Positions 18,855 through 24,913 of a stretch of DNA of 25,444 nucleotides are shown one piece after another (position 1 is the first letter of the stretch; each line of letters opens with the position of its first letter). Made by a program: the position numbers and the translations under genes. The notes beneath the pieces are model-generated. The model ran no database searches and was not told where the DNA came from. It saw only the letters and a program-made list of their open reading frames with translations. Source of the DNA: a virus; the IMG/VR virus record IMGVR_UViG_3300042868_003945, positions 1-25,444 of that record. One strand, 5' to 3'.

Positions 18855-18873
18855 GATAAATGTATTATAATTG
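18842..18873 (+). promoter_or_regulatory. Promoter of the HNH endonuclease gene
   Basis: TTTG (18842-18845), 20 nt, then TATAATTG (18866-18873), one mismatch from TAnnTTTG. It ends 4 nt before ATG 18878, so the mRNA would be leaderless or nearly so. It lies within the inserted segment. Confidence 0.5.
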
Positions 18874-19409
18874 TATTATGAAAGCAATAAAAAAATATCC
18901 AAATTATTTTGTAACTAAAGAAGGTTTAGTATTTAGTTCTAAAACAAACAAATTTTTAAAATTTAGTTATGACCAAAAAGGTTATCAAAGAGTAGGTTTA
19001 TATGTAGGAAACAATAAAACTAAAACTTTAAAAGTACATAGACTTGTAGCTGAAACATTTATAGATAACATTGAAAATAAAAAAGATGTTAATCATATAG
19101 ATGGTATAAAATCAAATAATAATATTTCTAATTTAGAATGGTGTACAAGAAGCGAAAATATGAAACACGCTTTTAGAATTGGATTAAACAAAATTTCAGA
19201 TAAACAAAAAAATAGATTTATTGCAATGACAAAGTCACAAATAGGAGTTAATAATCCTGCTGCAAGAAAATTAATAAATACTGAAACAAGAGAAATATTT
19301 GATACAATAAAAGAAGTTCTGCCTTTGGTTAATTTAAAAAGAACAACTTTTCAAGCTATGTTAAATGGTCAAAACCCAAACAAAACAAAATTTAAGTATT
19401 ATGAGCAGT
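18842..19409 (+). mobile_element. Inserted homing endonuclease segment
   Basis: About 576 nt between two copies of CCAAAAGA (18834-18841 and 19410-19417). It carries a promoter, the HNH gene and, at its right end, an ATG (19401) that gives the interrupted gene a new start. Confidence 0.65.
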
Positions 19410-19447
19410 CCAAAAGAAAAAGCAGAAGAGTTAGTAAATTCATATAG
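18878..19447 (+). CDS. HNH homing endonuclease (NUMOD4-HNH-NUMOD1 type)
   Basis: 189 residues from ATG 18878 (an ATG at 18860 would add six). Residues about 5-45 (YPNYFVTKEGLVFSSKTNKF) are a NUMOD4-like module, residues about 51-98 the HNH core (KVHRLVAETFI, VNHIDGIKSNNNISNLEW), and residues about 130-165 a NUMOD1-like DNA-binding module (TREIFDTIKEVL). It cuts DNA lacking the insertion and spreads the segment by repair. The C-terminal 13 residues or so are read out of frame from the target gene at 19410-19447. Confidence 0.88.
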   Translation: MKAIKKYPNYFVTKEGLVFSSKTNKFLKFSYDQKGYQRVGLYVGNNKTKTLKVHRLVAETFIDNIENKKDVNHIDGIKSNNNISNLEWCTRSENMKHAFRIGLNKISDKQKNRFIAMTKSQIGVNNPAARKLINTETREIFDTIKEVLPLVNLKRTTFQAMLNGQNPNKTKFKYYEQSKRKSRRVSKFI

Positions 19448-22564: not shown

Positions 22565-23202
22565 ATATAAACGGATTTGAATATAAAATAAATGAACAAG
22601 GGGTGCTTCAACAAGTCAATCCGAATGTTATAACTTACGATTCAGAATATGTAGAATCACGATATGGTGCAATCATTGAACTTCGCAAACAAATGAGTAT
22701 GCTAAGATATGGTTATATGGTAGGCAGCATCGGTAAACCAACTAAGATACTTGAAATTGGATATGGTGCAGGAGACTTCATTCAATTATGTGCAGAGCAG
22801 GACATAAAATGTTTTGGCAATGACATTACAGGAATACCCACACCGCCAAAAGTAACCGCAACCGATAACATATATGAGCAAGTTGATGTTGTTTGTATGT
22901 TTGATGTATTGGAACACTTTGAAGATATAAATTTCATCAAAGACCTTAACACCAAGTATGTTTATGTTTCAGTTCCAAATTGCTCACAGACAACTAATAT
23001 TGAATATCTAAGTAACGACTATATACACCTAAGACCAAATGAACACCTACACCACTTCAATAAGTCTTCACTAATAGAACACTTCAAGTTAAATGGATAT
23101 AAACTAATAACTATGTCAAACTGCGAAGACACAATAAGGAAAAGACCAAATACACCAATGAATATTTTATCTGCTATATTTGCAAAAGAAAATTTAAGCT
23201 AA
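22561..23202 (+). CDS. SAM-dependent methyltransferase (class I, Methyltransf_23-like)
   Basis: 213 residues from ATG 22561, coupled to the previous gene (ATGA). Motif I is ILEIGYGAGDFIQLC (about residues 62-76); then GNDITGI, and VVCMFDVLEHFEDINF as the post-I/IV block, followed by YVSVPNC and HLHHFNKSSLIEHFKLNGY. The family methylates small molecules or sugars; no DNA-methylase motif is present. A sugar or protein acceptor is suggested by the two glycosyltransferase genes upstream. Confidence 0.8.
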   Translation: MNINGFEYKINEQGVLQQVNPNVITYDSEYVESRYGAIIELRKQMSMLRYGYMVGSIGKPTKILEIGYGAGDFIQLCAEQDIKCFGNDITGIPTPPKVTATDNIYEQVDVVCMFDVLEHFEDINFIKDLNTKYVYVSVPNCSQTTNIEYLSNDYIHLRPNEHLHHFNKSSLIEHFKLNGYKLITMSNCEDTIRKRPNTPMNILSAIFAKENLS

Positions 23203-23606
23203 TGGGAAAACATAAATACATTGAAACACCCGAAAAGATGTGGGAATACTTTGAAGCATATCGCCAAAAAGTAAAAAGCAATCCTATTTTAGTTCAAGAC
23301 TTTGTAGGCAAGGATGGGGATGAGGTAAACAGAAAGAAAGAAAGACCATTGACATTAGAAGGTTTTGAACTCTATTGTTACGATAACGACATTATAAGCG
23401 ATTTAAGCCACTATTTTGCAAATTTAGATAATAGGTACAGCGATTATATAGCTATCTGTTCGCGCATAAGGAAAACTATCAAGGATGACCAAATACAAGG
23501 AGGTATGGCAGGAATTTACAATCCATCAATAACACAGCGTTTAAATGGATTGACAGATAAGAGTGAAGTAAGGCATATTGAGCAACCGCTATTCCCCGAT
23601 AATTAA
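23202..23606 (+). CDS. terS: Terminase small subunit
   Basis: 134 residues. TPEKMWEYFEAYRQKVKSNP, RPLTLEGFELYCYDN, NLDNRYSDYIAICSRIRKTI and GGMAGIYNPSITQRLNGLTD is the layout of Bacteroidota phage small terminase subunits, with a helical DNA-recognition part and the AGIYNPSI motif towards the end. It recognises packaging sites on phage DNA. TAATG joins it to the previous gene. The 92-nt spacer after it (23607-23698) is unusual for this compact genome and contains no gene. Confidence 0.8.
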   Translation: MGKHKYIETPEKMWEYFEAYRQKVKSNPILVQDFVGKDGDEVNRKKERPLTLEGFELYCYDNDIISDLSHYFANLDNRYSDYIAICSRIRKTIKDDQIQGGMAGIYNPSITQRLNGLTDKSEVRHIEQPLFPDN

Positions 23607-23698: not shown

Positions 23699-24913
23699 AT
23701 GTTCAAACGTACCACCGCTATAAATAGATTATTGAAGTTGACCGCCCGAAAGAAAATCATTCAGGGTGGGACTTCCTAACATCCCCTTATGAGTAATTGT
23801 AAGGGGGACTAATCAGCAGGCAAAACATTTGGAATCTTACCCATCCTAATTGATAGGGCAAGCAAAACACCGCACTTAGAAATTAGTGTAGTTTCAGAAA
23901 CCATCCCTCATCTTCGCAGGGGTGCAATGAAAGACTTTCTAAAAATCATGGAATGGACAGGTCGTTATTCAGATTTGAATTGGAATCGCTCACTACTTAC
24001 CTATCGTTTTGCAAATGGTTCTTACATCGAGTTCTTTTCAGCCGAAATGGAAAGCAAGTTAAGAGGTGCAAGAAGAAACATCTTATACATCAATGAAGCG
24101 AACAACATCACTTTTGAAAGCTATCACCAATTAGCAGTCCGAACAAGTGGAGAGATATGGTTAGACTTTAACCCAACCAATGAATTTTGGGCGCATACCG
24201 AGTTAATGAATGATGAAGACACCGAACACATCATTCTAACCTACAAAGACAACGAAGCACTACCCGAAACAATTATACACGATATTGAAGCTGCCGAGTT
24301 AAAAGCTAAGACATCAACATATTGGGCTAATTGGTGGCAAGTATATGGATTAGGGCAAGTAGGCAGCCTGCAAGATGTTATTTTCGACCAATGGAAGCAG
24401 ATTGACACGATACCGGAAAGAGCCGAACTTGTCGGGCATGGAATGGACTTTGGTTTCACAAACGACCCGAGCACACTTGTAGCGATTTACAAGTATGAAG
24501 GCAAACTAATCATTGATGAATTACTCTACCGAACCAATATGACAAATAATGACTTAGGTAACTTTCTAAAGTCAATCCAATTTGGGCGAAAGGAATTGAT
24601 TTGTGATAGTGCAGAACCTAAATCAATAGAAGAGTTAAGGCTGCAAGGATTTAATGTGCGACCTGCGGTTAAAGGTGCAGATTCAATCAAGATAGGAATT
24701 GACATCTTGAAGCGATACGAAATACAAGTAACTAAGAACTCAACTAATTTAATCAAAGAATTGAGGGGATATACATGGGAAAAGGATAATGAAGGCAAAC
24801 TTACAGGCAAACCAATAGACAGTCTAAATCATTGCGTTGACCCTATGAGATATGTAGCACTCTTAAAATTAAATAACCGACCGAGCGGAAAATATTCAAC
24901 AATTTCAATCTAA
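23699..24913 (+). CDS. terL: Terminase large subunit, frame interrupted in the Walker A motif
   Basis: Two blocks in one frame: 23699-23776 (MFKRTTAINRLLK...IIQGGTS) and 23816-24913, beginning AGKTFGILPIL. Joined, they give about 391 residues with GGTSAGKT (Walker A), VVSETIPHLRRGAMKD, LYINEANN (Walker B region), LDFNPTNEFWAH (C-motif) and the RNase H-like nuclease domain (MDFGFTNDPS, ICDSAEPKS, LNHCVDPMRY). All terminase parts are present. The two blocks are separated by a 39-nt insert (23777-23815) with TAA at each end. Packaging ATPase and headful/cos cutting are expected only if the insert is bypassed or removed. Initiation at ATG 23927 would lack the P-loop. Confidence 0.85.
23777..23815 (+). 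other. 39-nt stop-flanked hairpin insert in terL (candidate bypass element)
   Basis: Reads TAA, ten sense codons, TAA, TCA in the terL frame. TAA (23777-23779) follows Ser TCC (23774-23776) and TAA (23810-23812) precedes Ser TCA (23813-23815). CCCCTTA (23783-23789) pairs with TAAGGGG (23800-23806), 10-nt loop. TAAGGGGG (23800-23807) is complementary to the anti-SD (one G-U), 5 nt before TCA. Confidence 0.75.

Follow-up and report, generated by a model that had tools for sequence, protein, structure and literature searches.

How can a phage make its large terminase subunit, TerL, when the reading frame of terL is broken by a stop codon within the Walker A motif? This question is raised by the IMG/VR virus record IMGVR_UViG_3300042868_003945, which is 25,444 nt long and is referred to here, over its whole length, as the window. 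Programmed ribosome bypassing has been firmly established for a single phage gene, T4 gene 60, and for yeast mitochondria. Wider counterparts have long been presumed, and the known occurrences have stayed few (PMC5009743).

The interruption of terL

The window has the gene content of a phage, with terS, terL, portal, NinG, YqaJ and methyltransferase genes (Pfam, PHROG). The features at and next to the interruption are as follows.

23202..23606, + strand: terS, small terminase subunit (Pfam GP3_package, PHROG 606), directly 5' of terL
23699..23776, + strand: terL ORF1, MFKRTTAINRLLKLTARKKIIQGGTS, 26 codons, the N-terminal part of TerL including the first half of Walker A (direct reading)
23777..23812, + strand: 36-nt non-coding gap, TAACAT, hairpin and GACTAA (direct reading), with homologous gaps elsewhere in class 1
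23783..23806, + strand: hairpin CCCCUUAUGA-GUAA-UUGUAAGGGG, 10 bp, with a GNRA tetraloop and tandem U.G/G.U pairs
23801..23807, + strand: AAGGGGG, the G-rich 3' strand of the stem (direct reading), Shine–Dalgarno (SD)-like with putative anti-SD complementarity, 5 nt upstream of the landing codon
23813..24913, + strand: terL ORF2, from the predicted landing codon TCA through AGKTF to the stop (Pfam Terminase_3 and Terminase_3C, PHROG terminase large subunit), with dN/dS of 0.03-0.11 in comparisons that allowed an estimate of dS

ORF1 starts with ATG at 23699-23701 and ends with TCC, the predicted take-off codon, at 23774-23776, and TAA follows at 23777-23779. ORF2 begins with TCA at 23813-23815, contains 366 sense codons, ends with TAA at 24911-24913 and covers the remaining ATPase and the nuclease domains. 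It resumes as TCA GCA GGC AAA ACA (SAGKT). An earlier reading of this DNA, made from the sequence only (the sequence-only reading), had described this break between TCC and TCA and a TAA at each end of the gap, and direct reading of the window bears out both. The length of 39 nt given there is correct if the landing codon is counted, but the gap proper is 36 nt (23777-23812). It consists of TAACAT-CCCCTTATGAGTAATTGTAAGGGG-GACTAA and contains stops in all three frames. The hairpin, previously given as 7 bp, in fact has 10 bp and a GUAA (GNRA) tetraloop, and begins 6 nt past the take-off codon. When the gap was folded alone, the hairpin had a free energy of -13.7 kcal/mol (z -2.84). When the insert was folded with long flanks, the z-score was not significant and no 5' stem-loop of the T4 type was evident. 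The hairpin is not followed by a T-run and was rejected as a terminator. The position of TAAGGGGG 5 nt before TCA was also given correctly, but its role as an SD element is uncertain, because the G-run doubles as the stem's 3' strand and is separated from the landing codon by approximately 1 to 8 nt, depending on the insert class (described below).

The TerL of the window matches Terminase_3/Terminase_3C and phrog_2, and Walker A is present only when the gap is skipped. The nearest named TerL relatives are from Flavobacterium phages (55 % identity), and related terL genes were also found in Flavobacterium, Bacteroidetes and Chitinophagaceae MAGs. A comparison of the window DNA with INPHARED phages gave no similarity match; at the protein level the INPHARED matches were <60 % identical, and the best 60 full-length matches were all single pieces. 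Rfam gave no match in the window, and a group I or group II intron core was not found in the gap, which is only 36 nt.

Insert classes at the Walker A loop

A search for the insert in other phages, a check proposed in the sequence-only reading, found the exact 24-nt hairpin in 14 other viral contigs from other metagenomes, each time at the same place in terL; the same hairpin was not present in the genome contigs collection. Together with L094-L097 and L119, which were added through relaxed searches and homologue retrieval, this insert, designated class 1, was recovered from at least 19 further IMG/VR contigs and always from terL. Class 1 members have diverged (dS approximately 2 between the window and L096), their gaps are 36 or 37 nt, and L119 lands on TCG. 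As the exact hairpin recurs in other metagenomes and diverged forms exist, chance and misassembly are ruled out, and with them the assembly error that the sequence-only reading had named as a possible refutation, the insert being present in many contigs of independent origin.

In an alignment of the class 1 stem from seven sequences, 70 of 70 cells were paired. In one pair A-U is replaced by G-C, in two others a single partner is changed, and the loop of L094 is GAAA instead of GUAA, which keeps the GNRA form. The covariation among these seven aligned sequences thus appears modest in number but without exception. In L095 and L127, AAA replaces the TAA after the take-off codon; the frame then has no stop across the gap and ends up out of register with terL. 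A gapped pattern, TTCCTAA...CTAATCAGCAGG, also matched outside terL (L098-L108), but these were chance matches, nearly all of them in one repeated unrelated coding region.

Five more insert classes were found at the same Walker A loop by retrieving terL relatives. The six classes occupy three neighbouring sites of the one loop, in at least 60 contigs, and are listed here as upstream codons / insert / downstream codons, except for class 1.

Class 1: TCC > TCA (TCG in L119), gap 36/37 nt, tetraloop GUAA/GAAA
Class 2: GCA GGG / CGTTAACCCCCTTTGGCAACGGAGGGGGTGAATT / GGA AAG, tetraloop GCAA
Class 3: GCT GGA / TGTTGACCCCCACTGGGCAACTGGTGGGGGAAC / GGA AAA, tetraloop GCAA
Class 4: GCT GGA / TACTTGCCCCCGCTTTAACGAGCGGGGGA / GGA AAA, tetraloop UAAC
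Class 5: GCA GGT / GTTTAGCCCCTCTGAGAAATTGGAGGGGCACAATAA / GGC AAA, tetraloop GAAA
Class 6: TCC GCT / (C/T)TATAGTCCCTCTTTATTAAATTAAAGGGGGACAAAAATA / GTA GGA AAA, hexaloop, take-off codon assigned by geometry

After partial dereplication, and as lower bounds because the best 80 loci were taken per search, there were at least 26 distinct sequences in class 3, at least 15 in class 1, at least three each in classes 4 and 6, at least one each in classes 2 and 5, and at least 186 that are uninterrupted. The insert was found in at least six contigs for class 2 and at least three for class 5. The split of terL is a real, conserved and recurrent interruption of an essential motif.

All classes have a C-rich/G-rich stem of 9-11 bp that starts 5-6 nt past the take-off codon. 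Five have a tetraloop, which is of the GNRA type in four and UAAC in one. Only in class 1 (L095 excepted) does the gap open with a stop codon; in classes 2, 3, 5 and 6 the stop is the second gap codon, and class 4 has none near the take-off codon. The gaps are 29, 33, 34, 36 or 37 nt, and approximately 44 nt in class 6. These lengths span all three relative phases, yet the resumed frame is always that of terL, and hence the halves can be joined neither by readthrough of a stop nor by a single fixed frameshift. Take-off and landing codons are synonymous in five of the six classes (UCC>UCA/UCG, GGG>GGA, GGA>GGA twice and GGU>GGC); in class 6 they are not (GCU to GUA). The third-base difference that the sequence-only reading had pointed out as unlike T4 applies to class 1, while classes 3 and 4 have identical GGA/GGA codons like T4. 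In three class 4 loci (L199, L200 and L208), GGGGGAGGAAAAACA contains two adjacent in-frame GGA landing codons, and the product could be GGTSAGKT or GGTSAGGKT. Nine uninterrupted terL genes (L272, L273, L275-L277, L279, L282, L284 and L288) have GSSSAGKT in place of GGTSAGKT.

Across 1.92 Mb of retrieved phage DNA, searched on both strands, the hairpin type with a 4-nt loop matched only terL P-loops. Among the matches listed for generic UGRGNAAYUG hairpins elsewhere, no other split gene was recognised by eye. They were rejected as bypass sites, being intergenic, terminator-like before T-rich DNA or in ordinary coding sequence. Many viral contigs (L325-L422) contain hairpins with a CUGG-GNAA-CUGG core and C/G-rich stems, mostly before T-rich DNA like intrinsic terminators. 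As this core is common to the terL hairpins and the terminator-like ones, the bypass hairpins may have been derived from terminator hairpins.

Routes to a continuous TerL

Any explanation has to account for a TerL that is maintained by selection. For the codons downstream of the insert, dN/dS was approximately 0.02-0.13 where dS could be estimated, and it was 0.03 for class 1 terL pairs with dS >1. The upstream 25 codons are also constrained in diverged insert-bearing pairs, and both halves of terL are thus under strong purifying selection. Six of the eight records tested contain one terL match, and in the other two, both class 2, the second match corresponds to ORF1 of that split gene; an intact second copy was not found in any of the eight. 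The P-loop of Sf6 gp2, GGRGSGKS, for which there is a solved structure, aligns to GGTSAGKT without a gap, and alignment of close terL relatives, as the sequence-only reading had advised, showed that uninterrupted ones have a P-loop of this same length. The statement that reading both Ser codons gives one residue too many is hence upheld, and by the residue count only one of the two flanking codons can be read.

The ribosome bypass put forward in the sequence-only reading is the best supported of its options, given the hairpin, the synonymous landing in five of six classes, the product length, the frames and the link to an endonuclease. We regard the insert, with considerable confidence, as a translational bypass element for which programmed ribosome bypassing is the best reading. 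Ribosomes would translate terL as far as Ser UCC and stall there, their A site occupied by a stop codon and a strong GNRA hairpin facing their mRNA entry side. The peptidyl-tRNA would then release UCC and, once the ribosome had slid across the 36 nt of the gap, re-pair at the in-frame synonymous UCA just past the hairpin. Decoding would resume at GCA, giving a continuous TerL with the canonical GGTSAGKT Walker A. The other five classes would take the same route with Gly or Ala tRNAs. We infer the hop, the tRNA involved and the endonuclease target considered below from the sequences. Because the landing codon would pair with the peptidyl-tRNA and remain undecoded, the product would have the length given by a single residue at this point.

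Such a hop would also explain the synonymous landing in five of six classes and the restriction of the Gly classes to one isoacceptor group; both codons of each pair (GGG/GGA, GGA/GGA and GGU/GGC) presumably fall to one isoacceptor by tRNA wobble. In a Flavobacterium MAG that contains a related terL, tRNA-Ser GGA, UGA and GCU are all present. As UCC and UCA are normally read by separate tRNAs in the likely host phylum, landing in class 1 would need a third-position mismatch or cross-reading, and imperfect matches between take-off and landing codons have been described for mitochondrial bypassing (PMC5009743). The candidate signals are the stop codon, the strong hairpin and a nascent chain with a net charge of +4 to +8. 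This charge was found in 25 residues of TerL (+7 in ORF1 of the window, which is strongly basic). However, insert-less relatives have the same charge and it was rejected as a special signal; the basic chain shared with insert-less TerL may instead be why this spot tolerates inserts.

The main rival is excision at the RNA level, in which the hairpin segment of 29-44 nt would be cut from the mRNA and the ends joined, either as a minimal intron or by a nuclease and ligase. This would explain the frame-independent gap lengths and the purifying selection equally well, and the fact that endonuclease-associated mobile inserts are often introns also counts for it. However, we know of no self-splicing RNA this small, the Rfam search of the window was negative, and no splice-site sequence is common to the six classes. 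Excision also gives no reason for the duplication of a codon with a choice of isoacceptor (GGG/GGA, GGU/GGC) or for synonymy (UCC/UCA), and it would make the stops beside the take-off codon unneeded. We therefore consider it improbable.

Still less probability attaches to the remaining explanations. If TerL were produced in two parts, or through re-initiation downstream of the stop, the stop codon and the G-run that precede ORF2 would fit, but the break falls inside Walker A, there is no start codon at the resumption point, and the nearest ATG in the window is 114 nt past the landing codon. The first 36 codons of ORF2, which are 5' of any downstream ATG in the window, are constrained like the others, and the ATG in the hairpin of the window is not conserved, being GTG or ACA in L094-L097 and L119; this explanation is very unlikely. 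Slightly less credible again is a switch at the DNA level (phase variation), with precise excision in part of the population and TerL expressed only from the excised genomes. In classes 3 and 4 the gap lies between short direct codon repeats, which is in keeping with it, but none of 229 insert-less loci matches the sequence expected from precise, scarless excision, several synonymous codons being different around the site. The least probable explanation is a recent disabling insertion, raised in the sequence-only reading, which would leave terL dead or the phages defective. The stops do break an essential motif, but the insert recurs in many contigs from distant lineages, there is one terL per record tested and the stems have compensatory changes. 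Disablement is refuted by the selection on both halves, which in insert-bearing class 1 sequences extends to pairs at dS >1.

The putative programmed bypassing in terL can be compared with the known systems. In T4 gene 60, a stall at GGA-UAG, a stem-loop in the A site and contacts in the tunnel lead to sliding driven by EF-G, and processivity is constant, approximately 0.99 per nt, for gaps of up to 56 nt (PMC11194080). Gaps of 29-37 nt are therefore well within range. As in the 50-nt bypass of T4, the terL frame is split with one or more stops and a gap hairpin, both halves are conserved, the codons are GGA>GGA in classes 3 and 4 and synonymous in three more, the nascent chain is basic, an SD-like G-run precedes the landing codon, and there is an association with a homing endonuclease, for which cleavage is presumed here (PMC5009743, PMC11194080). 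Unlike T4 gene 60, the terL inserts are in Walker A, have gaps of 29-37 nt (approximately 44 nt in class 6) and form six classes. Their GNRA hairpin starts 5-6 nt past the take-off codon, whereas that of T4 is in the A site, the third base is often not the same in the take-off and the landing codon, and a 5' stem-loop was not detected. Because the position of the hairpin and the placement of the stop differ, and the hop is predicted, the terL insert was not filed as a T4 gene 60 element.

The byp elements of Magnusiomyces capitatus mitochondria are likewise many short mobile inserts skipped in translation with imperfect codon matches tolerated (PMC5009743). However, byp are at dispersed sites in many genes of fungal mitochondria, whereas the terL inserts affect one loop of one gene in bacterial phages and have a conserved strong hairpin. 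Another phage terminase with a proposed bypass (cited in PMC5009743) is tied to a UUA codon and host regulation and not to a P-loop hairpin insert. A 29-nt hop has also been reported in the adhesin gene of Prevotella loescheii, with a Bacteroidota host and a similar gap length (PMC5009743). Unlike terL, this is a cellular gene, and the hop has been little followed up.

Mobility and HNH endonucleases

On a protein tree of 140 rows, 18 changes are required to account for the inserts, and well-supported branches force no fewer than 10 of them (quick method). As judged from this tree, the elements are gained and lost often. Pairs with and without an insert that are approximately 90-97 % identical downstream differ by the insert and a short recoded tract. 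For example, L016 and L020 are near-identical for approximately 170 nt upstream of the site and identity resumes right after the insert, but the eight codons before it are all synonymous and different (AAA ATC ATT CAG GGT GGG ACT TCC versus AAG ATT ATA CAA GGC GGA ACA AGT). Comparable short recoded tracts were found in classes 3, 4 and 6. They resemble the result of short-tract co-conversion with other phages as donors.

Of 48 distinct insert-bearing loci, 12 (in classes 1, 2, 3 and 5) have an HNH gene abutting terL, compared to 2 of 169 insert-less loci; in the insert-bearing loci this gene ends approximately 96-116 nt before the P-loop. For any HNH match in the upstream 900 nt, the numbers are 13 of 48 and 4 of 169 (P = 9e-7, which is approximate as the loci are related). 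In the two insert-less loci with such a neighbour, L253 and L257, the HNH gene is more distant, ending approximately 217 nt upstream of the P-loop, and these are candidates for an endonuclease without a bypass element. The window contains one such gene.

18860..19447, + strand: HNH_3 homing-type endonuclease gene (Pfam HNH_3, E 7e-14)

It sits between unrelated phage genes, and its homologues abut terL in other insert-bearing phages. As it is 4.3 kb from terL, its role in the window is uncertain.

The T4 gene 60 bypass has been linked to a neighbouring homing endonuclease (PMC5009743), and the arrangement predicted for terL matches and multiplies this pairing. The spread of the elements probably took place together with an HNH homing-type endonuclease that would cut the uninterrupted P-loop sequence, or as a defence against it, in the manner of the T4 gene 60 segment and its neighbouring endonuclease. 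These would quite probably be mobile elements that are tolerated through programmed ribosome bypassing, this being the best reading. It is also fairly probable that they constitute a family of mobile translational bypass elements not described before, with at least six classes and a common GNRA-type hairpin, that repeatedly invades the terL Walker A in Bacteroidota-type phages with HNH endonucleases. If this is true, efficient bypassing is not a T4 curiosity but a recurrent, transferable device that uses several tRNAs, and it is tied to homing endonucleases a second time. Six natural classes with varied codons, hairpins and gaps in one gene would provide a comparative set for the minimal bypass signal (stop, hairpin position, codon match and nascent chain). 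As terL is a phage marker gene, split copies have probably been annotated as truncated.

Prophage terL genes were also looked for in 395 sampled genomes from the host class, and none of the intact P-loops recovered there has an insert. Two further loci had no readable P-loop, and one had a TAG after an intact loop. In this last prophage (L497), the loop is GGARSSKT with the in-frame TAG shortly after it, possibly reflecting a decayed gene or a sequencing error.
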